From assembly GCF_036178845.1 (NCBI RefSeq), contig NZ_CP108070.1, positions 10,416,001-10,480,000 on the forward strand: a stretch of DNA of 64,000 nt, written 5' to 3'. A program made the position numbers and the translations under genes. Within the stretch, counting starts at the first letter, position 1; every line of letters begins with the position of its first letter. Positions 43,671-63,579 of this stretch are shown one piece after another. This DNA is from Streptomyces sp. NBC_00271 (lineage in GTDB: Bacteria > Actinomycetota > Actinomycetes > Streptomycetales > Streptomycetaceae). The notes beneath the pieces were generated by a model, which was given only the letters and a program-made list of their open reading frames with translations, was not told the DNA's origin and did not search any database.

Positions 43671-46600
43671 CTACCCGTCCAGCGCCGTCCGCACCGCCGG
43701 ATCCGCCGCCAGCGTCTCGTAGATCCACGGGGCGTTGCGCGGGGCCTGGTTGCGGGTGCGGGTGGTGAGCAGGGAGCGGGTTTCCTCGCGGGCCCGGTGC
43801 GTGGTGAGCGTGCCTGATTTGCGGTGGGCCAGGATCGTGCGGATCCGGTCGAGTTCCTCGTCCTCCGCGGTGTCCGGTGCGTCACCCTCGGCGCCCGCAG
43901 CCGGGTCGTCGGCGAACAGGCGGGCCGCCGCATGGCGGATCAGCACTTCCGCGCACAGCATCGCGGGTGCGTCCGGCGCGTCCCCCAGCGCCAGGCGCTC
44001 GGCGCGGGCCAGGACGCTCACGGCCTGCTGGTGGGCGTCCTCGGCGGCGTAGACGGCGCTCAGGTCGATCAGCGTTTCCAGCACCCGAGGACGGTCGTTG
44101 CCACGCTCCCACCAGTCGGCTGCGACCTGGTAGAGATGGACTGCCGTGGCCGGGTCGTCGAGCAGCGCGGCGGTGCGGGCCGCGTTGGTGTGGCAGTTGG
44201 CCGTGTTCCAGGGTTCCTCGGCCTGCTCCCACAGCGCAGCCCCGCGCCGGTAGAGGCCGAGCGCCTGCTGCAGATTGCCCGCGTCCTCCTCGGCGACCCC
44301 GCACTCGTTGCAGGCCATCGCCCGGTGTTCGCTGCTGCCCCAGCGGTCGGCCAGCTCCACGGACTTGCGGCCCCAGCGCAACGCCTCGTCGGTGTTGTCG
44401 GCCCGGCGGGCGATACGGAAGTTGTTGATCGCGACGGGGACGGCGGCCGCGGCCCGCCCGGTCGTGGTGAGCGTGTCGACGGCGCGTTCCCCGGCGCTCA
44501 GCGCCCCGGCCCAGTCCTCCGCCTCCCACAACAGCATGCTCAGCTTGAACTCGGCCTCGGCGACCCGGACCGGCAGCCGGTGCTCCCGGGCGAGCCCGAC
44601 GGCCTTCCGTGCCGCTGCGACCGCGGCCTTGAGCGCCTGGCCCGACCGCAGCGTGTCCGCGTTCAGCAGACAGGTCTTGACGGCTTCCTCGGGATCCCCG
44701 CGGCGCAGATGCAGGGCGATGCGATCGTCGTTGACGTCGACGACCGCGTCGAGTTCACCGCGTGCCGAGTACAGGACATGCAGCCCGATCATCAGTTCTG
44801 TGGCCATGTCCAGCCAGCCGTTCTGCTCGGCCAGGGACAGCGCGGCGTGAAATCGGCTCGGGTCGAGCTCGCCGATCAGCTGCGCCCCGTACCGCTGGTC
44901 GGTGATCTCCGCCAGCCGGTTGACCAGATACGCCACCCCGGCCCGCTGGAACTCCTGAATCTCCGCGGGCGGTTCGGTGAGGTCCAGCTGCTCGCGGGCA
45001 TACAGCAGGACCAGGTCGTACAGGCGGAAGGTGGCCAGCAGCGCACCGGCGGGCAGCCGGACGAGGTCCTGCCGGGCCAGACTTCGATCCACCAGCCGGT
45101 TCAGCAGCAACTCCTGCCGCATCGCGGGCGCCTTGAGGCAGTGCCCGAGCTCCGCCCCGCTGACCGCCGCGCCCGGCGCCGCCGCGATCAGCCGGAACAC
45201 CCGCTGGGCCGACGGGTCCAGGGCGTCGTGGCTGAGCCGGATGGCCAGGCGCACGGCGCGGTCCCCGTAGGCGAGGGCGTCCAGCCGGACCGACTCCTCC
45301 TCCAGGAGCTGGACGAGATACGACGCGGGCGGTCCCGAGGGATGGGCCAGCCGCGCCCCGGCGATCCGCAGCGCCAGCGGCACATCGCCGCACAGCTGCG
45401 CCACCCGGTCCAGCGCGGCGGGTTCGCAGGCGTCGGGGCGTTCCTGGCAGCAGCGGATGAGCACCGCGACAGAAGCAGGTCTGGCCAGCGGACCTACATC
45501 GAGGACCAGCCCGGGGTCGGCGTAGTCCTGGGCGCGGTCGCGCGAGGTGACGATCAGGGCGCAGCCCGCCGGTGCCTTGACGAACGGCCGGACATGGGCG
45601 GCGTCGGCGGCGTTGTCCAGGACGAGCAGCACGCGGCGCTCGTGCAGGGCGGCGGTGAGTGCCGCGAGCTGCCGGGCGTCGTCCGTCAGTTCCGAGCCGA
45701 GGTCCAAGCGCAGCGCCTCACTGATGATGCGTACCACCGTGCGGGCATTCAGCCGAGCCTCGGGCATCAGGCCGCGCAGGTCCACGTAGTACACGCCGCC
45801 CGGGAACGCGGGGATGAGGGCGCGGGCGGCCTCGACAGCCACGGTGGAGGTGCCGGCGCCGGGCTGGCCGGAGAGGAACGCGGTGGCCGATCCGTACCGC
45901 GTCATCCGGCGGTCGATCGCGCGGGCGAGACGGGCCACCAGCTCCTCGCGTCCGGCGACGCACGGGTCGGGTGCGGGCAGCCGGCACATCTGAACGGCCA
46001 CGGCGGCGAGTTCGGCGCGGCCGGGGGCCGGTCCGGGGACGGCGGGGGCGCTGTCCGTGTCGCCGGTGGCGGGTGGGCGGGGCGGGACGAGTACGGCTTC
46101 CACCGATGCGGAACGGATCGGCGGCAGCAGGTCCAGCAGCGCGTGCAGGAAACCGGACAGCGGGATGCCGTCCCCGTCCAGCAGCGCCTCACGCAGACAG
46201 CTCCGGCAGGTGTCGGACAGCTCCGTGAACATGCCGCCGGGCAACTCATCGGCCAGCATTCGCCGCACACTCCCGAGCAGGGCCCGCGCCGCGTGCGCCG
46301 CCATCTCGTCCGCCGGCTCCGGCCCCGGCAGCGGTGCGGACCAGCGGTGCAGCGCCTCATCGTGGTCGGCGAGCCGGGGCAGCAGGACGCGTGGTTCCAG
46401 GCCGCGCAGCCGTAGCCGGCGGCGGAACTCGTCGGTCTCCCGTCGGCTCCAGGCGCCGGCGGCGGCCCGCTCCAGGATTTGGCCGAGCAGGTCCTGGAGC
46501 GGGCCGGAGCCACGGCAGGTGTCGTCGATCGCGGTGAGCACCAGGGCGGCTTCGCGGGCCGTTTCCGCTGCTCCGGTCACTGTGGTGCGGGGCGCGGGGG

Positions 46601-47279
46601 TGGCGTCGTGGGCCGAGATGAGGGTGCCCGGCTCGTCGCCGAGGGTCAGCCGGCTGCGTACGGTGATCTCGGCCGGGCCTTCGAGCAGGTGGGTGAGGTC
46701 CTCGGTTCTGGCCACCCAGACGGAGTCGCGCAGCCAGCCGTCGGCGCTGTTGTAGCGGGCCGACACCACGCCGAGCACCACTCCGTCGGTCAGCCGGAGT
46801 ACGGGGGCGCCGCTCATCCCGGGCAGCAGTGCGGACGAGGACAGCCGGCCCAGCGGGACATCGTCTCGTACCGTCCAGCCCTGCCAGCTGCCGGTGGCAT
46901 GCAGGAAGCGGTAGTCGTGCCCGGGATCGTCCACCCCGGCCACGCCGTTCACCACCACACCGGTCAGCAGCCGCACCGCGTCCGTGGGTGCCCACCCGGG
47001 GACGGACTCCTCCAGCGGCCGGGCCCGGCGCAGCACCGCCAGATCGCGTACGTCGTCGACCGCGGTGACCTTTGCCCACTCGGCGGCCGCCGCACCGCCG
47101 AGCGCGTCGGTCCGCACCTGTGCGCCGGGGTACCCGCAACCGAGTCCGGCCAGCACGTGCCAGGCGGTGACGACAATGCCGGGCGCCACCTGGAAACAGG
47201 TGCCCGCCGGTGCGCCGTCGGGGCTCAGTACGCGTCCCAGACTGCCCGGCACCCGGGGATGGCGCGTCGCCGCCTCCAT
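43671..47279 (-). CDS. Trypsin-like protease - STAND NTPase - TPR protein (NLR-like)
   Basis: A 1202-residue protein. The N-terminal ~200 residues are a trypsin-like domain with all three triad residues placed: His41 in VVTAWHVLAG, Asp near 79 in VDDVRDLAVL and Ser near 155 in LLPGMSGAPVL. A helical linker leads to an NB-ARC-like STAND NTPase with P-loop SGQPGAGTSTVAV at about 471, YYVDLRGL, VLLVLDNAADAAHVR (Walker B) and LIVTSRDR, with GDVPLALRIAGARL as the GxP motif. The C-terminus is a TPR array. This is the domain plan of bacterial NLR-like conflict proteins: TPRs sense, the NTPase oligomerises and the protease is the effector. It lies 20 bases downstream of the Trypco1 gene and is surely co-expressed with it. 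Confidence 0.87.
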   Translation of the reverse strand: MEAATRHPRVPGSLGRVLSPDGAPAGTCFQVAPGIVVTAWHVLAGLGCGYPGAQVRTDALGGAAAAEWAKVTAVDDVRDLAVLRRARPLEESVPGWAPTDAVRLLTGVVVNGVAGVDDPGHDYRFLHATGSWQGWTVRDDVPLGRLSSSALLPGMSGAPVLRLTDGVVLGVVSARYNSADGWLRDSVWVARTEDLTHLLEGPAEITVRSRLTLGDEPGTLISAHDATPAPRTTVTGAAETAREAALVLTAIDDTCRGSGPLQDLLGQILERAAAGAWSRRETDEFRRRLRLRGLEPRVLLPRLADHDEALHRWSAPLPGPEPADEMAAHAARALLGSVRRMLADELPGGMFTELSDTCRSCLREALLDGDGIPLSGFLHALLDLLPPIRSASVEAVLVPPRPPATGDTDSAPAVPGPAPGRAELAAVAVQMCRLPAPDPCVAGREELVARLARAIDRRMTRYGSATAFLSGQPGAGTSTVAVEAARALIPAFPGGVYYVDLRGLMPEARLNARTVVRIISEALRLDLGSELTDDARQLAALTAALHERRVLLVLDNAADAAHVRPFVKAPAGCALIVTSRDRAQDYADPGLVLDVGPLARPASVAVLIRCCQERPDACEPAALDRVAQLCGDVPLALRIAGARLAHPSGPPASYLVQLLEEESVRLDALAYGDRAVRLAIRLSHDALDPSAQRVFRLIAAAPGAAVSGAELGHCLKAPAMRQELLLNRLVDRSLARQDLVRLPAGALLATFRLYDLVLLYAREQLDLTEPPAEIQEFQRAGVAYLVNRLAEITDQRYGAQLIGELDPSRFHAALSLAEQNGWLDMATELMIGLHVLYSARGELDAVVDVNDDRIALHLRRGDPEEAVKTCLLNADTLRSGQALKAAVAAARKAVGLAREHRLPVRVAEAEFKLSMLLWEAEDWAGALSAGERAVDTLTTTGRAAAAVPVAINNFRIARRADNTDEALRWGRKSVELADRWGSSEHRAMACNECGVAEEDAGNLQQALGLYRRGAALWEQAEEPWNTANCHTNAARTAALLDDPATAVHLYQVAADWWERGNDRPRVLETLIDLSAVYAAEDAHQQAVSVLARAERLALGDAPDAPAMLCAEVLIRHAAARLFADDPAAGAEGDAPDTAEDEELDRIRTILAHRKSGTLTTHRAREETRSLLTTRTRNQAPRNAPWIYETLAADPAVRTALDG

Positions 47280-53010: not shown

Positions 53011-53367
53011 TCATCCCCCCAGTTGTGTGTACTTGTCCGCCCGGCCCCGCGCGAGGTGCACCGGATACTTGCGGCGGTTCGTCTCGATCTTCTCCGTCAG
53101 CGCCTGCTCGAGGTCGAGGCCAAGGACATCGGCCAGTCTCAGCAGGTAGGCGAACACGTCCGCCATCTCCTCACGCACCTGAACGGCACGCGTGGGATCC
53201 TCCATTACCTGGGCAGACTGCTCCGGCGTCAGCCACTGGAAGACTTCCAGCAGTTCGCCGCTCTCACCGGCCAGCGCCATCGCCAGATTCTTAGGAGTGT
53301 GGAACTGCTCCCACTCACGTTCGGCCGCAAACCGGGCCAGCTCATCCTGCAGGACCTGAAGTGTCAT
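53011..53367 (-). CDS. MazG-like nucleotide pyrophosphohydrolase
   Basis: A 118-residue protein. The all-alpha NTP pyrophosphatase signature is complete: ALAGESGELLEVFQW followed by REEMADVFAYLLRLAD, which give the ExxE-x(n)-ExxD metal-binding set, and EKIETNRRKYP after it. It resembles dCTP pyrophosphatase/RS21-C6 relatives and would hydrolyse (d)NTPs to monophosphates. The start ATG at 53367 has GAGG very close (about 2 bases), so translation may rely on a short leader. It is divergent from the DUF2075 helicase gene, and such hydrolases often accompany defence genes by depleting or cleaning nucleotides. Confidence 0.85.
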   Translation of the reverse strand: MTLQVLQDELARFAAEREWEQFHTPKNLAMALAGESGELLEVFQWLTPEQSAQVMEDPTRAVQVREEMADVFAYLLRLADVLGLDLEQALTEKIETNRRKYPVHLARGRADKYTQLGG

Positions 53368-53445
53368 GACCTCAGCTGTATCAGAATCCTCCGACACCCC
53401 CACCGGCCCGCCAAATACCCTTCTCGCTCGGCCAGTTGTTGCTGG

Positions 53446-53452
53446 TATAGAT
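53446..53452 (+). promoter_or_regulatory. Candidate -10 box for a leaderless helicase transcript
   Basis: TATAGAT ends 5 bases before the ATG at 53458, and no ribosome site precedes that ATG. Transcription would then begin at or next to the start codon. A clear -35 box is not seen. Confidence 0.45.
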
Positions 53453-53457
53453 CGTAT

Positions 53458-55341
53458 ATGTATCTCTACGGGGGCACGGTGGCTGAGGCCGCCCGCCAGG
53501 TGGGCCAGGACACCTTCGTCGCCACGGCCGCGCAACGCTTCGCGCAACGCTTCGGTGTGCCCGCCGGCACCCAGGAGGTGCACAGCTGGAGCCGCAGCTG
53601 GCCGGCCCTCACCCGGGCCCTGTGCGCCGCCGGACTGGAGGGCCTGCACCTGCTGCTGGAGTACTCCCTGCCCGCCACAGGGGAACGCATCGACGCCCTG
53701 GTCGTCGGCGAGGACACCGACGGACGTCTGTGCATGGTCGCCATCGAGCTCAAGCAGTGGACGCGCGCCTACCTCACGTCTGCCCGGCCCGGCATGGTCC
53801 GTGTCGGCCGGCGCACCGTTGTCCATCCCGCCCGCCAGGTCGGCGGCTACGTCCACTACCTGCAGCAATGGGTCAGCCGCGACGAGCTGCCCCTGAGCGT
53901 GCGCGGCGTGGCGGTGCTGCACGACGCCCCCACCGAACTGATCGAATCCCTGCGGACACAAGCCGCCCACGGGCCGTCCGCCGCCTTCCCTCTCCTCGGG
54001 CAGGCCGATCTGACCGCCACCCCGTCCGCCGACGCCCTGGCCGCCCGGTTGGGCTGCGCCGGCCTGCGCCCCACTGGCCGGCACCGGGTGGACGAGCTGC
54101 TACGAACCGAACACCGCCCCTCACCTACGCTGCTGGCCCGGGCAGGCGACGTCATCGAGGGACGGGACGCCTTCACCCTCATCGGGGACCAGGACCTGGC
54201 CCGCCAGGAAGTCCTGCACGCCGTCGCCGACGCCCAAAACCAGGGAAGGAAGAGCATCGTCGTCGTCACCGGCGGCCCCGGCACCGGCAAGACCGTCATC
54301 GCCTGCCGCCTGCTGGGCGACCTGTGCCGACAGCAGGACGCCAACCCACGCCTGCTGTCGCCCTCCGGCACGCTCACCCGCCAACTGCGCCGGACCGTCG
54401 GCGACGACTTCCGCGGACTCATCACCACCTTCCTCGACAAGATCCCCGCCACCCTCACCCCCTCCAGCGTGGTCCTCCTCGACGAGGCCCACCGCGCCCG
54501 CACCTACCCCGACCACCGGCGCGCCGGCTTCCCCCTCACCCTCGGCAAACTCATCGATCAGGCCGCCGTCACCGTGCTCTTCCTCGACGAACGCCAGACC
54601 GTACGCCCCACCGAGGGCATCACCCTTGAGGAACTGCGCCAGCACGCCCTGCACAGCGGCCTGTCCTTCGCCCACGTCGACCTCGTCACCCAGTTCCGCT
54701 GCAACGGCTCACGCGCCTACCACCAGTGGGTCGACCAGCTCTTTGCGCCCGAAGGAGCCGCCCCCGCATGGACGGCATCCGACTACGACCTGGCTGTCGC
54801 GTCCGACCCCGAGCAGCTCAGCGCCTGGGTCGGCGAACACACCCGCCACGGTGCCACCGCCCGGATCACGGCCGGTTTCTGCTGGCCCTGGGACTCCCCG
54901 CCCACACCGCCCCTACTTCCGGAGGTCGACATTGCCTGGGGCGATTCCGACCAGCGCCGCATCTGGGCGCGCCCCTGGAACTCCCGCGCCGACGCACCCG
55001 ACCTCGACCATCCCGAGGTACCGGCCCGCCCGTTCTGGGCCACCGACCCTGGTGGTCATCACCAGGTCGGCTGCATCTACACCGCCCAAGGCATGGAGTA
55101 TGCCTACAACGCAGTGATCATGGGCGGCGACCTCGTCCGCCGAGGCGAGCGTTGGATCGCCGAGCCCGACGCGAGCCGGGACCCTCAGCTTCGGGGCCTT
55201 CCACCGCAGCGCTACGTGCGATACGCACTCAACAGCTACCGTGTCCTCGCCACCCGAGGCACCCGAGGCACCCGCTTCTACTCGACCGACGAACCCACTC
55301 AGGCGTACCTGGACCGGCTGCTTCCCCCGCACCACACATGA
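53458..55341 (+). CDS. DUF2075-type helicase/ATPase with nuclease-like N-terminus
   Basis: A 627-residue protein. The DUF2075 ATPase core has Walker A VTGGPGTGKTV at about residue 270, Walker B VVLLDEAHRA at about 340, and LVTQFRCNGSRAY plus QGMEYAYNAVIMGGD later, as in Schlafen group 3-like DNA/RNA helicases. The first 110 residues include GERIDALVVGEDTDGRLCMVAIELKQWT, a D ... ExK arrangement like a PD-(D/E)xK nuclease. The ATG at 53458 appears leaderless. The gene is divergent from the MazG-HNH pair, so all three may be one defence module. Confidence 0.8.
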   Translation: MYLYGGTVAEAARQVGQDTFVATAAQRFAQRFGVPAGTQEVHSWSRSWPALTRALCAAGLEGLHLLLEYSLPATGERIDALVVGEDTDGRLCMVAIELKQWTRAYLTSARPGMVRVGRRTVVHPARQVGGYVHYLQQWVSRDELPLSVRGVAVLHDAPTELIESLRTQAAHGPSAAFPLLGQADLTATPSADALAARLGCAGLRPTGRHRVDELLRTEHRPSPTLLARAGDVIEGRDAFTLIGDQDLARQEVLHAVADAQNQGRKSIVVVTGGPGTGKTVIACRLLGDLCRQQDANPRLLSPSGTLTRQLRRTVGDDFRGLITTFLDKIPATLTPSSVVLLDEAHRARTYPDHRRAGFPLTLGKLIDQAAVTVLFLDERQTVRPTEGITLEELRQHALHSGLSFAHVDLVTQFRCNGSRAYHQWVDQLFAPEGAAPAWTASDYDLAVASDPEQLSAWVGEHTRHGATARITAGFCWPWDSPPTPPLLPEVDIAWGDSDQRRIWARPWNSRADAPDLDHPEVPARPFWATDPGGHHQVGCIYTAQGMEYAYNAVIMGGDLVRRGERWIAEPDASRDPQLRGLPPQRYVRYALNSYRVLATRGTRGTRFYSTDEPTQAYLDRLLPPHHT

Positions 55342-55530: not shown

Positions 55531-57394
55531 TCACTCGGATGTATGGGGGTAGTAGCCGGTGATCCCCAGCTCCGGGGAGCCGACGAGCAGAGCACGGTCG
55601 AGCAGGATGTTGTTCAACTCGCAGCTGGTCTCCGGGAGCAGGATGCAGGCATGGCATGCGGCGAGATTGAGGCCGTCCACGCCGCTTGCGTCGGCTTCCA
55701 TGCAGAGCGGGTCGGCCGAGCACCAGGAGATGCGGCGCAGCGCCGAGTCGGGTGAAGAGGCGAGCCGCTCGGGCTTTCCTTGGGCGATGGTGCCGCCGAG
55801 ACTGCCGGCCGAGTCACTGGTCGCCGTGTACAGGAGGAAGCCCGCCATCTCGTCCGAGACGTACAGCCGCTCGCGCAGGGAGGCCGCAGGGTAGCCGCAA
55901 TCCAGGCTCCACTCGTTGATGATCGCGTGTGCCAGAGTGTGGACCAGGACCAGCCGGGCCGACACCGGTGATCGGGGCTGTGTGTCGCCGCGCTCGCGCA
56001 GCATTCTCAGATGTCGCCGGCGCAGGCCTTCCACCCGCGCGCCAGCAGGTTCGGACTCCACATGGGCCTCCCAGGCGCGCAGACGCGCGGTGTCCAGTCG
56101 AACAAACACGCCCTCTCCGATCACCTCCATCGCGGGAAGCCAGGACACTCCGCCTCGGTGCAGGCGGGCTCGTCGCCCGGGCGGGTCCGACGGCATCGGA
56201 GCGGTGACCCGGGTGAACGCGGTCAAGGCGCGCACCTCACGCAGCCGCTTGACCAGCATCGTCTGTTCGAGGCCGGGTACCGTCGGCGAACCGGGGGTGG
56301 CGCCTGCGGGGACACATACGAAGTGCTGGTTCTCAGGGGTGTCCTCGGTGGTGGAGCTGAGCTGGCGGAACTCCTCGGTGCGCAGCCGGTCCGCCAGCTC
56401 GAGGGCGTCGGGGTTCTCGGGGTCGATGGCCTCCTGGCGTTCGGCGGCCTCGAGGGTGCGGACGGCGTCGACGATGTCGGTGGGGGGTGGGGGGGGAACG
56501 GCCGTCGGCCAACCAGCCTGCGTCCGCGGCGTACTCTGCGATACGGGCATCGCCCTTGCCGACCAGGTGGCGGCGGTGCTCGCGTCGCAGTACGAGTTGC
56601 ATCAACGTCTTGTGCCACGGTGGGATGGTCAGGGCGGAGCGGACCACGGGGAACCAGGCGGCAGAGGCGCCTCGCTGGAGAGCTTGCAGGCCCTCCCCGC
56701 AGCCGGGTTGCGTTGCCTCGTCGCCCAGCCAGGGACGCTCGCCCCTGCAGCTGATGGCCGGGCGGGCCATCGCCTTGCGGCCGAAGGCGCCCTCGAGGGA
56801 GGCTCTCTTGCCGCAGCTGCACTGGATGACGATGGAGCGCAGGGATGCGGTGCGGCCGGTGGAGGTCAGCTGCATCCGGCATCGCTCGCCCGATCCGCGA
56901 GTTGAGGTGTGCTGGCCCCGATGGGTCCACTCCCAGTAGGGGAACTCGGCCAGGTGGCCCTTTGAGCACGCCACGATGAAACGGGAGGGGGTGGTTGTGC
57001 GGTCGCACTGACCGCAGTATCCGCGGCCCTTTGGCGAGTTGAAGCCGCTGTAGGGCTTCAGGGTGCCGCACTCCTGACAGGAGTAGGTGATCGGGAAGCG
57101 GCGCACGCGCACCCCGTCACCGGCCGGTGGATCGGACGCCGGTGGCAGGTGGATTCCTCGTACGCCCAGGTCGCTCTCGAGCCGGGGCTCGCGAATGTCG
57201 AAATCCGACCCCATGTGCCAGCTGTCGAGTCCGCTGACAAGGAAGGACTGGTCGCCGATGGCCACCATCGAGCCGACGCCGTAGGTGGTGATCTGTTGAG
57301 CCTGACGCACCGCGCCGAGCCGTCCCAACACGCCCTGGGGTTGTGCTCCAGCCTCTTGGTCGAGGCGTCGGCGGCTGCCCGAACGAAGTCCCAC
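55531..57394 (-). pseudogene. DrmB-like DUF1998 protein, frameshifted in a C-run
   Basis: The start GTG at 57394 follows GGAGG by 6 bases and is preceded by the end of a small frame. The N-part reads VRQAQQITTYGVGSMVAIGDQSFLVSGLD and has zinc cysteines (YSCQECGTL, GYCGQCDR, CSCGKR). The C-part reads VLVHTLAHAIINEWSLDCGYPAASLRERLY, the DUF1998 signature, and WCSADPLCME ... NLAACHACILLPETSCE, with conserved cysteines. The two halves are in different frames: the change falls in a run of eight and six C at about 56481-56496. Rejoined, they give about 620 residues, the usual DrmB size. DrmB is a DISARM component. The pseudogene status depends on the run being read correctly. Confidence 0.72.
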
Positions 57395-57395
57395 C

Positions 57396-57556
57396 TCAGG
57401 CCTCCAGGTACAGGTCGGATTCGACGTCCACGTCGCGGAAGTTCCACATGGTGTCGATGGCACGGGTCAGGTCGTCGTCGTTGTGCGCGCGCAGCAGCGC
57501 CGTGTCCGCTTCGCGTTGTGCGCCTCGCGCACGTCCGTCAGTACGCCTTCTTCCAC
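57396..57556 (-). CDS. Possible very small protein between the helicase and drmB-like genes
   Basis: A frame ending ALLRAHNDDDLTRAIDTMWNFRDVDVESDLYLEA and a stop at 57396-57398 lies between the helicase stop and the DrmB-like start, with GGAGG of the next gene inside it. A good GTG (57556) is in another frame, so a one-base change near 57515 would be needed to join start and body. Alternatively it is a short leader or noise. Codon composition of the body looks coding. Confidence 0.35.
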
Positions 57557-60500
57557 AGGTATTCGAACTCCGTGTACGCCAGGTCGCGCCCGAAGTTGTC
57601 GATGTTGTCGCGGACGTTGAGGATCAGGCACTCGGGCTCACCACCGTTGGCGGGACCACGCAGTCCACGACCGATCATCTGCACATAGGTGTTCGGACTG
57701 TAGGTGGGCCGGGCCACCACCACGACACGGACCTTCGGTGCATCGAATCCCTGAGTGAGGACTCCGTAGTTCGTCAGCACTCGGATCTTCCCGTCGCGGA
57801 AGTCCTGGATCCGTCGGGCCCGGATGCTGGATCTGGTTTTCGACTCGATGTAGGCGGCCGGGACACCGCGGTCGCTCAAGAGCGCCGCGAGGACCTTGGA
57901 ATGCTCCACGGAGGTCGCGAAGACCAGGACCGGCCAGCTCGCGTCGAGTCTTTCGATCTCCTCCACGATGCGCCGTGTCCGGGACACGTCTTCGGCCAGC
58001 TTCTTGGTGATGTCGTCGGGGATGCCCATGCTGTTGTGCTGCAACGCCTTCTCCGCCTGGGCCGCTGACAGCGAGACACTGCCGCCGGGCAGTTCACGCT
58101 GCTCCACCCGCGACAGCACCTCCAAGCGCTGCAGGTGTGTGTGCGCCGAACTCTCGTCATCGCCGTCGAACGCGCCGAAGTCGAGGCGGCGCTCGCCGAA
58201 GCGCTTGACCAGACGTCGGGTCTCCTCGTCGTTGCGGCCGCGATAGGCGGTCGCGGTTAGACCGATCAGAGGACGGGACACCCGGTACTGGTCGATACCC
58301 AACAGGTCGAGGATCTTGGTGTAGGTCTTGGGGATTGCGAAGTGAGCCTCGTCGATGATGACCGCCGCGGCATAGCGGAGCCACGCGTACTGCTCGTCGG
58401 CCAGACGCTGGACGAGCGTGTCGTCGATGGCCACCACCAGGTGATGGCCGTCGTTGAACGGCTCGGGGTGATGGCCCTGCCGCATGCGGCTGATGTGCAG
58501 CTTGGAGGAGGCCCCGAAATGGGGCCAGAGGAACTCCCAGGTGGCGATCGCCTGCTCGCACAGCTCCTCGCTCTGCGCGATCCACAGAACCGGACCGACG
58601 AGATGGCCGTCGCGCATGGCACGGATGGCCGCCTCCGCTGCGACACGAGTCTTGCCCGCTCCGGTCGGCAGGCTCAGCATCGCCCGTTGCGGGGCCTCCT
58701 GGGCCAGCAGGCGGCGCATGTTCGCCACGACCGTGACCTGGTAGTCATGCAGATCGGTGACGGTCCGAGGACCCATGACGGCGAAACTGGTGGGAGGAGG
58801 GGTGTCGTCCGGGTCGCCTGCCCAGGAGGCGGGAAACCCATAGCTACGCAGGAACGCACGGGTCCGCGATCCACCCACCCACTGCGAAGGCGTGTCGTCG
58901 AACCCCGCCTCGCGGAACGCCGGCGCCAGGGTACGCAGGACGTCGGCACCGTAGGACGCCACCACCAGGCGCGCCACCCGCAGGTCGTCGGCCAGCGCAC
59001 CGCGCAGTTCCGCGTCGGTCAGGAGCAGACCTGCCGGGAGACGATCTCGAAGCCGCTCGACGCCGACAGCCAGCAGCAGTTTGCGGGCGATGTCCGGCTC
59101 ACGGCGCACCGCGACGAACTTCTCGTTCTCCCGATCCTTGACCTGCTGCGCCAACAGCGCCCGACACGCAGACGCATCAAGTCGAAGACCGAGCACTGCG
59201 ACCACGGCCATGAGGACCGACAATTCATCCTCGGGGCCGCACACCAGGATGTCGGAACCGGAGCGCGTCTGCAGCAGCGATTCCTCCTCCCTTCCATGCC
59301 CCTCGGTGGTGACCACGCGTGCCAGGGACGTGCAGTGCACGATCCGCAGGTCCGAGTCGTGCGGCAGACGCTGCTTGAGCCGGGGATAGACGTCGAAGAG
59401 AGGGATGGGATCACCAGCGGGTACGTGCTCGATCTCCTCCTTGATGGCGTGCTCGCCGTCCTGCATCGACCACAGCTCGCGCATACGCCCGACATCCTCC
59501 GACGCAGGCGCCAGCAGCGCAGGCAGCCGATGGATCTGCAGCGCACGGTACTTGGCACGATCGTGAGTCACATATATCTCGCTGTCCTGCCGAAACGCCC
59601 ACTCCTCACCTACGCGGCACCGCGTCTCCTCCTGGCTCGGCCACGGGATGTCCGAACCGTCCTCGACCGCATGCGCAAGCAGAGCGAAGGCACGGCCGAC
59701 GAGCGCATCGTCGTCACTGATGGCGAGTTGTTCGAACAGGCCTGCCCAGGCACCGGCAGGGATGTCGTGGACCGTCGAGGCCAGACCCAGTGCCGCACCG
59801 AGTTCGGAGTCCACCTCGGCCACCGGTAGCAGGTCGCCGTGCGCGCGCAGCGCGGGAGCGACCGACTCGCTGACACCGCGCAGCCCCTGACTGGTCGGCA
59901 GGCTCACCCTGTTGCGGATGAGCCACACGATGGGGGAGGCGACCGTCTGCTGCGCGCCGGTGCTCGGGCGTCGCACCGTCCAGTGGTGCGGCACGCCATG
60001 ACGGGGCAGAGCGCGGACGTAGGCGGCCTGCCCCTTCTCGGACAGCCCCAGCAGCAGTTCCAGAGGACCTGCCGTGTCGGAGCCCTCCAGGGATACCGCC
60101 TTGACGCCGACATGTCGGGCACCGGAGGCGAGAGAACGGTTGAACACACCGAGTGCGTAGGCGAAGTAGTCGCCGAACCATGACGCCCCCCGGTCGACCC
60201 GCGCGAGAGCCGGGACCTCAGTTGCCCCCAAATCCTTGAGCACGGTCATGTCGGGGCCGTGGAAACGCGGATCGATGGTCGCATGCGCGTCCCTCGACAG
60301 ATCGGAGGGGACGACACGACCGGGGAGGAGACAAGTGTGCAGAGGCCGGAAACGGCCGTCACAACACCGCACCTTTATCGTCTCTCGGTAATCCTGGCAC
60401 CGTGCTCGGATCGCCGCCACGGTGGGGGCGCCGCCGGCGTGGCGTGTCAGTTCCCAGAACTGCGCCCAGTCACCGTCCCCGTAGCCGGAGAAGCCGATGT

Positions 60501-62253
60501 CCAGCACGGCTTCCAGACGGCCGACAGCACTGGCTTCGGTGATGCCCAGGACGGACAGGGCCTTTTCGGCTTCATGGTCCAGGGCAACCTCGGGGTGCAC
60601 GTACCGCTGACCGTCGTGGAGCGCGCCGGTACCCGTGACACGCCGGTACACGGTTCCCGGCTGAGGCGCGTGCCGTTCGCCGTCCTCGGTCAGCAGGATG
60701 CGGGCACGGGCTGCGTCCGCAGCGTGTGAGGAACCCTTGGACTTCATGTCGGCGGCGATCAGCAGAGCGAGGATGCTCGCTTGGGGGCTGCCGTCCGACA
60801 CCAGCGCCTCGAGCCAGTTCTCGACGGACTCCACCGGTCTGTCCGCCAGCTCCATGATGTCGCGGACGCGCGAGCGGCGATTTTGGGCCTCGGCGCTGTG
60901 ATGCACCCAGTCCACCGGACGACCGGGAAGTTCGGCCCACAGCCGAAGCCACTCCTGCTGCAGGTTCTCAGGGTGCAGACGCAACGTCCTCGGCTCGCGC
61001 AGGGTGCCCGACTGATCCGGGACCGAGGGACGCGCGACCGCGGCATCCAACACGTCCGCGCTCAGCTGCCGGTCGGCCCACTGCGCGGCCTCTCGTCCAC
61101 GCGCGGTCAGCAACGGCAGATACGAACCAGGATCGTTCGCTTCGAGCAGCTGGGGCACCGAATCGACGATCAGTTCCGCGGCTGCTCGGATCAGCTCGGT
61201 GTTGAACGGGCTCGTCTGGAGGTTTTGGCGGTCGGGGCTGGTCTGCCAGGCCGCATTGAGCACACCGGTGAGCGTCGTGTTGTAGTGCGTGGGGAAGTAC
61301 GCCCAGAAGTCGCCGCGTTCGGAGCGATTCTTCACGCCCCTGCCGGGCACCGCCCAAGAGATCCGGATCGTGGGTCTGCCGTGCTGGTCCCCGGCCGCGT
61401 CCAGCGCCTCGGGGGAGGGGGCATGATCGCGGGAGAAGACGTGCCACTGCTCCGTGCGTACCTGCCGCCCGTCCACCTGCTCACGGATGGTGTGTGCGTC
61501 GCCGAGAGCACTCTGATTGATGACGCGCAGGTGCTGACGGCCGGTCCGCCCGTCCTCCAGCATGACCGTGTCCACGTGGGAGGAGAACAGCTGGAAGTGC
61601 ACGGGGAAGTTGTGGAGATCCCCACCGAGCCGGTCGGCAGCGCCCGGCTTCAGCGGCAGCACCACCACCGTGGAGGCCCACTCCATCAAAGAGTCGAGAC
61701 GACTGTCCGATCTTCGCTCGGCGGCTTCGTCCAACACTTGCGCCATGCGGAGGACCGGCGTCTCCTGACTCTCCGGAACCGGCACGGTCTCCCGGATGAG
61801 CTGGGAGGACCACACCTTGTCGAAGCCGAAACTACCGCTGCTGCTGAAAAAACGAGGAGTGTCGCAGACGCTCAGGACGGATTTCACGCCCACGCCGAAA
61901 CGCCCGATCTTTCCCCCGCGCTTGGCCGACGAACTCATGTGAAGAATCGTGTCCACCCCCTGCGCAGAAACCGGAAAGCCCGTGTTCGCACAGTAGAGAT
62001 GAGTATCCGTCAGCACGACATGGATACGCCCTTCACTCTTTGCGTCGATCTCGTCGGCGCCGTTCTGGACCAACTCGTAGATCTGCCGGTCGCTGTAGCC
62101 GCCCCGGGAGATGTCGCGTTCCAGGTTCGCATGCTCCAGAACATGCCGTGGATCGGCTCGATAGACGTTGAGACTGCGCCGTGACAACTCACGTACAGCT
62201 GTCACGACATCCGACAACTGAGACTCCGGCAACTGAGGCTCGGGTGCCTGCAT
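57538..62253 (-). CDS. Fusion of Hsp90/sacsin-type ATPase and SF2 DEAD/DEAH helicase
   Basis: A 1571-residue protein. The N-terminal ATP-binding fold of the GHKL/sacsin kind shows IYELVQNGADEID (about 58-70), HLYCANTGFPVS (about 85-97) and KIGRFGVGVKSVL (about 115-127). A long middle of about 1000 residues is unassigned. The C-terminal helicase has LSLPTGAGKTRVAAEAA (about 1190), VIIDEAHFAIP (DEAH, about 1300), LIGLTATAYRG, VLVFATSVEHSKVLA and YVQMIGRGLRG (motif VI, about 1530). Start ATG at 62253 with AAAGGAG 10 bases upstream. It is followed closely by the DrmB-like gene. Known DISARM has a separate helicase DrmA. An Hsp90-type domain fused to the helicase is a different design and I cannot assign it to a named defence system. 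Confidence 0.85.
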   Translation of the reverse strand: MQAPEPQLPESQLSDVVTAVRELSRRSLNVYRADPRHVLEHANLERDISRGGYSDRQIYELVQNGADEIDAKSEGRIHVVLTDTHLYCANTGFPVSAQGVDTILHMSSSAKRGGKIGRFGVGVKSVLSVCDTPRFFSSSGSFGFDKVWSSQLIRETVPVPESQETPVLRMAQVLDEAAERRSDSRLDSLMEWASTVVVLPLKPGAADRLGGDLHNFPVHFQLFSSHVDTVMLEDGRTGRQHLRVINQSALGDAHTIREQVDGRQVRTEQWHVFSRDHAPSPEALDAAGDQHGRPTIRISWAVPGRGVKNRSERGDFWAYFPTHYNTTLTGVLNAAWQTSPDRQNLQTSPFNTELIRAAAELIVDSVPQLLEANDPGSYLPLLTARGREAAQWADRQLSADVLDAAVARPSVPDQSGTLREPRTLRLHPENLQQEWLRLWAELPGRPVDWVHHSAEAQNRRSRVRDIMELADRPVESVENWLEALVSDGSPQASILALLIAADMKSKGSSHAADAARARILLTEDGERHAPQPGTVYRRVTGTGALHDGQRYVHPEVALDHEAEKALSVLGITEASAVGRLEAVLDIGFSGYGDGDWAQFWELTRHAGGAPTVAAIRARCQDYRETIKVRCCDGRFRPLHTCLLPGRVVPSDLSRDAHATIDPRFHGPDMTVLKDLGATEVPALARVDRGASWFGDYFAYALGVFNRSLASGARHVGVKAVSLEGSDTAGPLELLLGLSEKGQAAYVRALPRHGVPHHWTVRRPSTGAQQTVASPIVWLIRNRVSLPTSQGLRGVSESVAPALRAHGDLLPVAEVDSELGAALGLASTVHDIPAGAWAGLFEQLAISDDDALVGRAFALLAHAVEDGSDIPWPSQEETRCRVGEEWAFRQDSEIYVTHDRAKYRALQIHRLPALLAPASEDVGRMRELWSMQDGEHAIKEEIEHVPAGDPIPLFDVYPRLKQRLPHDSDLRIVHCTSLARVVTTEGHGREEESLLQTRSGSDILVCGPEDELSVLMAVVAVLGLRLDASACRALLAQQVKDRENEKFVAVRREPDIARKLLLAVGVERLRDRLPAGLLLTDAELRGALADDLRVARLVVASYGADVLRTLAPAFREAGFDDTPSQWVGGSRTRAFLRSYGFPASWAGDPDDTPPPTSFAVMGPRTVTDLHDYQVTVVANMRRLLAQEAPQRAMLSLPTGAGKTRVAAEAAIRAMRDGHLVGPVLWIAQSEELCEQAIATWEFLWPHFGASSKLHISRMRQGHHPEPFNDGHHLVVAIDDTLVQRLADEQYAWLRYAAAVIIDEAHFAIPKTYTKILDLLGIDQYRVSRPLIGLTATAYRGRNDEETRRLVKRFGERRLDFGAFDGDDESSAHTHLQRLEVLSRVEQRELPGGSVSLSAAQAEKALQHNSMGIPDDITKKLAEDVSRTRRIVEEIERLDASWPVLVFATSVEHSKVLAALLSDRGVPAAYIESKTRSSIRARRIQDFRDGKIRVLTNYGVLTQGFDAPKVRVVVVARPTYSPNTYVQMIGRGLRGPANGGEPECLILNVRDNIDNFGRDLAYTEFEYLWKKAY

Positions 62254-63579
62254 AGTGCGCGTACTCCTTTGGCCCCGGATCGCCAGGGTCGGCATCGTGT
62301 TCGATGAGGTGAAGCAGGAGCTGCGCAACACATGGACACAGGCAACCACGCACGCCCAGGGGACGCGCGGTCGTGCGTCAACCCACAGGTATGGCGGCTT
62401 CCCTCGCTGGCCACGGAGCCGCGTGGGGAGGCTCGAAGTGTGCGGGACCAGGTTAGAACGCGTGAAGCTTCGGTGACAAGAGAGAGTGTCAATTATGTTG
62501 ATTCATAGTGAAATTGGTGATTTTCTGATGCTGGGCGGTGTGCGAGCATCACTGACAGGAGGGGCTGGGAGCTGACCCGTGCGCGCACCGCACGTCTCAA
62601 TGGCCCAGAATTCCCGCTTCTGGAAATGCAAACCCATGTCTGAGGGTTTCTCCTTGACCTCAGCAAGGGGGTTCGGTGTAGCAGTCAATCGTAAGCATCA
62701 GTGCGGTCGATGCCTTGGCCATGTGTTTTCTGATCCCGTTTCAAGGGCAACGAATCAAAAACTCCTGCAGCCCCGCCCGTGACTCACGGCCGTATCTGCC
62801 ATGGCCTGGCGGTGACCTGATCAAACCCCATTTCCTGCGTTGGTGATTCGATTCTTGGGTCAGGTTGTAGCCCCGCAGGCACCAGCTCGTCGACTCTCAC
62901 CTTCGAATTCCGCCGCGCCCAGTTCGGGTGGATCTGTCAGGGAGGGGAAGCTGCGCTGAAGACCAGGCTGGATAGCGCGGAGGTGTCGATATGGCTCCTC
63001 GCCGACGTAGCTCTGGCACATCGTGCCCGGCAGGTCCGGGGGGCTTGTCCGGGCACGATGTGTCACAGGCGGCCTCCGCTGCAGCATGGCCGGCAGACCG
63101 GTCCGCTCATCCTCACCCGCGGTTCCTCATCGGCCCTCGTCTCTCCACCTGCCGGTTCGGCGACCAGGACGAGCTGCCCTACCGAGAGATTCCCGCAACC
63201 CGGGACACCGAAGGGCTTCCACCGAAGCACGGTGATCACGGGCACCGAAGACCGTCCGCCGGATGCTCGCCAACGCCACCGAGCGGCCGCGGGCCGGCGG
63301 ACGCCGTAGTGCGCGGGACGTCAGCGGGGGATAGGCGGGCACGAGCCTGATAGTCCCGCCACTTTCAGATGTCGAGCCGTTGCCAAGGGCCCTGGCAAAG
63401 GCCAGTCAACCTGGGGTGAACTTGAGCCAGTCATCCCATCAGAGGGATGGCCGCAGCGGCGATAGACATGCGGAGATTGCCGCCATCATGGGGTGAGCAG
63501 TGTGGTCACTCCACCAAGGCGCTGCGTACGAGACTGGCGGGATCGCCGGCTCAGATTTACTCCGGGTCGGATCTACAGA
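62254..63579. other. 1.3-kb interval upstream of the helicase operon
   Basis: No gene is supported; open frames are short and lack ribosome sites. The first 300 bases should hold the helicase-operon promoter. An AT-rich stretch near 62488-62530 with repeated TTGAT/GTGATT blocks stands out against the GC-rich background. The rest looks like eroded sequence. The only structured element is the hairpin at 63017-63062. Confidence 0.45.
63017..63062. repeat. Perfect 14-bp inverted repeat
   Basis: CACATCGTGCCCGG (63017-63030) and CCGGGCACGATGTG (63049-63062) are exact complements around an 18-base G-rich loop. It may be a terminator, a protein site or the fused ends of a lost transposon. Confidence 0.6.

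Follow-up and report, generated by a model that had tools for sequence, protein, structure and literature searches.

Does a giant ATPase-helicase fusion of Streptomyces sp. NBC_00271 form, with the DrmB-like gene beside it, an antiphage system of only two genes? The question is raised by a segment at 57396-62253 of a 64,000-nucleotide stretch (the window; NZ_CP108070.1, positions 10,416,001 to 10,480,000, numbered here from its first letter), for which a first-pass annotation had proposed a two-gene system lacking a methyltransferase. The fusion protein, encoded on the minus strand at 57538-62253, has 1571 residues and is named SacHel here. The analysis points to another origin: with a probability of about 0.85, judged from sequence comparison, the locus is a deletion-decayed copy of a DISARM-like operon of the order SacHel - UvrD-like helicase - DrmA - DrmB.

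The same genome carries two further copies of the operon, B and C, with SacHel at C1:10510152-10514828 (54% identity) and C1:4877637-4882421 (46%). Both are four-gene operons in which SacHel is joined by a UvrD-like helicase (about 640 residues), DrmA (about 1083 residues) and DrmB (about 615 residues). The 143 bases that separate SacHel from the DrmB-like gene in the window encode the C-terminal 39 residues and the stop codon of DrmA (57396-57515, minus strand). A blastx comparison with six proteins gave this remnant 64% identity to DrmA of copy B (E 2e-13). Among P0122-P0241, the 120 listed of 7825, five full-length DrmA proteins (P0147, P0148, P0150, P0151 and P0152) have ends that match it at 85-95% identity. 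The DrmA search gave no match in the window and, over the whole assembly, matches only to the two genes of copies B and C. Because the end of drmA sits at the SacHel/DrmB junction, the locus is read as a deletion derivative, and the missing part is about 5.0 kb, made up of the UvrD-like gene, with roughly 1.9 kb, and some 1045 codons of drmA. Close relatives of the window SacHel appear to hold the operon intact, since P0147, P0150 and P0152, which have the window type of DrmA C-terminus, apparently share genomes with the SacHel relatives P0010, P0008 and P0004 (81-85% identity), judging from equal lengths of the longest contig (37503, 129077 and 6101786), a link obtained for three of eight relatives at 81-86%.

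The DrmB-like gene was matched by NCBIfam DrmB_fam and Pfam MZB and probably starts at the GTG at 57394, 143 bases past the SacHel stop codon and on the same strand, much as had been annotated. A break in its frame, located at about 56501 to 56481, leaves two open reading frames (56333-57463 and 55531-56550). The first part of the gene occupies 56501-57394 and the second, in another frame, 55531-56481, with the MZB zinc-binding domain at 55642-55935 (all minus strand). Residues 21-295 of copy B DrmB align at 57319-56501 and residues 300-611 at 56481-55549 in differing frames, and on the DrmB profile (cut-off 240) the parts separately reach 170.7 and 266.2 bits compared to 472.1 bits for copy B. 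The layout first described for the locus thus held for the fusion and its neighbour, all on the minus strand, and failed in two respects, as DrmB is not intact and the drmA remnant had gone unnoticed. Having no DrmA and a broken DrmB frame, the window copy has probably lost its activity, unless operon B, complete and about 25 kb away, could supply the missing subunits. As SacHel is still open, the inactivation is perhaps recent.

The four-gene organization was assessed in relatives. In a scan of named species genomes, 335 loci carried some SacHel relative (E<=1e-3) and the best 79 were examined; all were from actinomycetes, mostly Streptomyces. The order SacHel - UvrD-like helicase - DrmA - DrmB was complete in 75 of the 79, and two others (L075 and L101) are incomplete as the contig ends there. 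The expected association of the helicase with a DUF1998 gene was found, DrmB belonging to the same operon in these 75 loci and being separated from SacHel by the UvrD-like and DrmA genes. When the 79 loci were combined with 15 family loci and copies B and C (96 loci, at least 5 counted twice), all four genes were present in 91, with constant strand and order and a median gap of -4 bp per junction, and SacHel with DrmB in the absence of DrmA was seen in 0/96. Among 150 family genomes, 18 gave a match: a long SacHel is encoded in 15 (at 18 loci, the window copy among them), and three have only a helicase-like match. DrmA and DrmB were present in all 15 family loci compared and the UvrD-like gene in 14. 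DrmA of copy B, used as a query on the 150 genomes, gave 16 matches of at least 53% identity, all about 2 kb from SacHel; its other matches (37-52%, many partial) lay away from SacHel, except one in G042 (40%), which adjoins it. At the genus level, 18/131 genomes match SacHel, and DrmA was found about 1.9 kb from SacHel in 7/7 genomes also searched for DrmA, excluding the window's own. In a phylum-wide sample, 4/396 genomes, the window's own included, match at E<=1e-100.

While the four-gene core is constant, the restriction-modification (R-M) genes nearby vary. A C5-methyltransferase gene is present in the flank of 74/79 named loci and 71/75 complete loci, contrary to the idea of a form without a methyltransferase, and a Vsr-like gene adjoins many copies. 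The two C5-methyltransferases of copy C are closer to the DruM and MTase_II models than to DrmMII, and no relative of them was found in the window and the next 20 kb. For the HTH/GHKL-like and '17184' proteins of the flanks, no homology to the p2MP ATP-binding and PD-(D/E)XK proteins was seen.

These results bear on other ways in which the locus may be explained. That SacHel and DrmB are a genuine two-gene defence system would agree with an intact SacHel and a DrmB-like sequence 143 bases further on the same strand; it is very improbable given that the gap is occupied by the end of drmA, that the DrmB frame is broken, that none of the 96 loci shows the pair without DrmA and that, in the accessible text of PMC9142583, the known partner of DrmB is DrmA. 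Alternatively, the gap and the frame break may be assembly or sequencing artefacts in an operon that is really whole. The drmB break does fall in a C-rich stretch, where sequencing errors are common, and either a mutation or an error could have caused it. However, about 5 kb would have to be lost by artefact precisely between two genes, and the missing part is not found elsewhere, as DrmA occurs in the assembly only in copies B and C; this explanation is highly unlikely.

Several observations weigh against a decayed copy of a defence operon, or against parts of that reading. One is that the DrmB break may stem from a sequencing error. SacHel of the window is still fully open with its catalytic residues kept, and it may still act by itself. 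In L052 and L114, SacHel is present without the three partners adjoining, DrmA being located elsewhere in both genomes. The constant core includes no nuclease gene. Finally, the 19 kb compared for copy B contain no relative of the C5-methyltransferases tested, and methylation therefore cannot be the sole self mark.

The annotated fusion of an ATPase to a helicase was confirmed by its motifs and by profile matches. SacHel lies in an open frame of 1603 codons (57538-62349, minus strand), in which AAAGGAG precedes its start codon, an ATG at 62253. From the N-terminus, it consists of a GHKL ATPase domain of the sacsin SR1 type (61510-62157, residues 33-248), a part aligning with Hsp90/SMCHD1-type ATPase modules (61147-61509, residues 249-369), a confidently folded middle (58804-61101, residues 385-1150) and a superfamily 2 (SF2) helicase core (57658-58755, residues 1167-1532), all on the minus strand. 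The NCBIfam sacsin ATP-binding domain gave 67.0 bits against a cut-off of 50, and the GHKL residues E60, N64, D67, G117, G120 and G122 are invariant in an alignment of 52 relatives. Pfam ResIII and Helicase_C both exceeded their cut-offs, and Walker A, DEAH and QM.GRGLRG are present in 8/8 proteins compared; the match to the NCBIfam RadD equivalog (108.1 bits) does not reach the cut-off of 720. The middle had no match in the libraries searched, including the PDB.

The kinship with DISARM already suspected from DrmB was supported by DrmA, which exceeded the cut-off of 950 of the NCBI model 'DISARM system helicase DrmA' (NF038325) in 8/10 proteins tested (973.9 bits for copy B); L035 was 1.4 bits short (948.6) and L048 reached 812.3. 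DrmA fits this short-form model and misses the long-form model NF038326 by more than 300 bits. DISARM class 1 comprises DrmA, DrmB, DrmC, DrmD and DrmMI and class 2 DrmA, DrmB, DrmC, DrmE and DrmMII (for class 2, PMC9252829); according to the accessible text of PMC9252829, the class definitions need DrmC plus DrmD or DrmE. At 17 loci in 15 genomes, a DrmC-type PLD (PF13091) was not matched over 20 kb or as far as the contig reaches, whereas a separate DrmA of G018 does have a PF13091 match about 4 kb off. The matches that PADLOC listed for copy B and its four core proteins (25 of 48 for the UvrD-like helicase) do not include DrmD or DrmE. The complete operon resembles class 2 in DrmA and DrmB, with a C5-methyltransferase gene nearby at most loci. 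It differs in having SacHel and a UvrD-like helicase, and in that PLD/DrmC was not found near the 17 loci and DrmE was not among the matches listed; the window copy has also lost DrmA. With class 1 it shares DrmA and DrmB, common to both classes, and differs in the short form of DrmA; DrmC, DrmD and DrmMI did not occur among the matches seen. By its gene content the complete operon is DISARM-like and, because DrmC was not found, is filed in neither class. What sets it apart is SacHel together with the UvrD-like helicase.

The search of defence-system models that the first-pass annotation had called for returned no system defined by the pair: PADLOC gave DrmB for the neighbour, and its matches for SacHel, to TmtA and PbeA-type models, were all part-length. 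The Tiamat protein TmtA resembles the SacHel N-terminal ATPase region (E 2.2e-46, residues 47-516 of the 1603-residue frame), but the match spans only 8-449 of the 1538 profile positions, and the remainder and the operon are unlike. PMC12458937 defines ARMADA, BRIGADE and TALON; ARMADA type II (BrxHII-like, PglX-like, YprA-like and GajB-like proteins) also combines a YprA/DrmA-type with a GajB/UvrD-like helicase but has other companion genes, and the terms GHKL, Hsp90 and sacsin are absent from the accessible text. The R-M neighbourhoods of GHKL proteins (MORC/paraMORC) bring together a GHKL ATPase, SF2 helicases, a C5-methyltransferase and Vsr (PMC2292703); the DrmAB core is extra here, and the accessible part of that paper has no sacsin or DUF1998 term. 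Human sacsin SR1 (PDB 5v44) differs as sacsin lacks the helicase present in SacHel. The accessible text of PMC10482375, on actinobacterial defence, does not mention DISARM. As had been supposed, the system is probably little-described: no description of the SacHel operon was found in the open literature searched, which did not cover the founding DISARM paper.

The complete four-gene copies are likely to be defence systems. In the accessible text of PMC9142583, a trigger loop restrains DrmAB, 5'-overhang DNA activates it and methylation damps it, and DrmC is dispensable for DISARM. By analogy, DrmAB would act as the sensor, loading on invading DNA whose ends are free and unmarked, and self DNA would be marked by the C5-methyltransferases adjoining most copies. 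The GHKL module of SacHel would form an ATP-gated clamp, as in MutL, MORC and Hsp90, and would relay recognition to two motors, the RadD-like one of SacHel itself and the UvrD-like one. The DNA would thereby be blocked, or unwound to be attacked by a nuclease that is either Vsr-like or supplied by the host. In this detail, from sensor and methyl self mark to clamp, two motors and nuclease, the mechanism is speculative and unlikely to be right throughout. Somewhat less doubtful, and still tentative, is the broader proposal that the complete operon represents a further DISARM class of actinomycetes, in which SacHel, with its sacsin-type ATPase and RadD-like motor, and the UvrD-like motor replace DrmC/DrmD/DrmE. 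The clamp would time DrmAB and the two motors, and the SacHel middle of about 770 residues would serve as a novel module for coupling or recognition, partly shared with stand-alone sacsin-like proteins of R-M operons.

Variant forms of SacHel were also seen. It is split into two abutting pieces at G020:C136:97694-102423 and G075:C195:69818-74661 and interrupted by one TGA each in L017 (G133) and L149 (G575), which suggests repeated loss if these breaks are not sequencing errors. In Streptomyces tropicalis (L052, 9936-17175), SacHel is followed by a distinct 817-residue UvrD-type helicase, with DrmA and DrmB not adjoining. Locus L027 (G033:C1:3012120-3013475) encodes a helicase whose relationship to SacHel is confined to the C-terminal part of the latter. 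This helicase lies about 2.3 kb from an opposite-strand DrmA match and perhaps belongs to a DISARM relative in which the motor stands free.

Convergent with the window locus, the gene at 53023-55341 (plus strand) may also serve defence. Its product of 772 residues contains a Schlafen group 3 helicase domain (E 2.5e-62), and a NERD-like nuclease match to it is weak and does not reach the cut-off. Large trypsin-like proteins are encoded on both sides (window 43671-47279, minus strand; L010 1359-6080, plus strand), one with a TPR and one with a STAND NTPase match, and an N6-methyltransferase gene lies at L010 8087-9727; because of these genes the region looks like a defence island.

The locus illustrates that a deletion product can pass for a new minimal system, and the operon from which it derives connects prokaryotic defence with the sacsin fold. 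Structures of DrmAB have been solved and the recruitment of the other parts is still open (PMC9142583, accessible text); the constant partnership of DrmAB with a gated ATPase and motor in actinomycetes provides a concrete system in which this recruitment may be tested.
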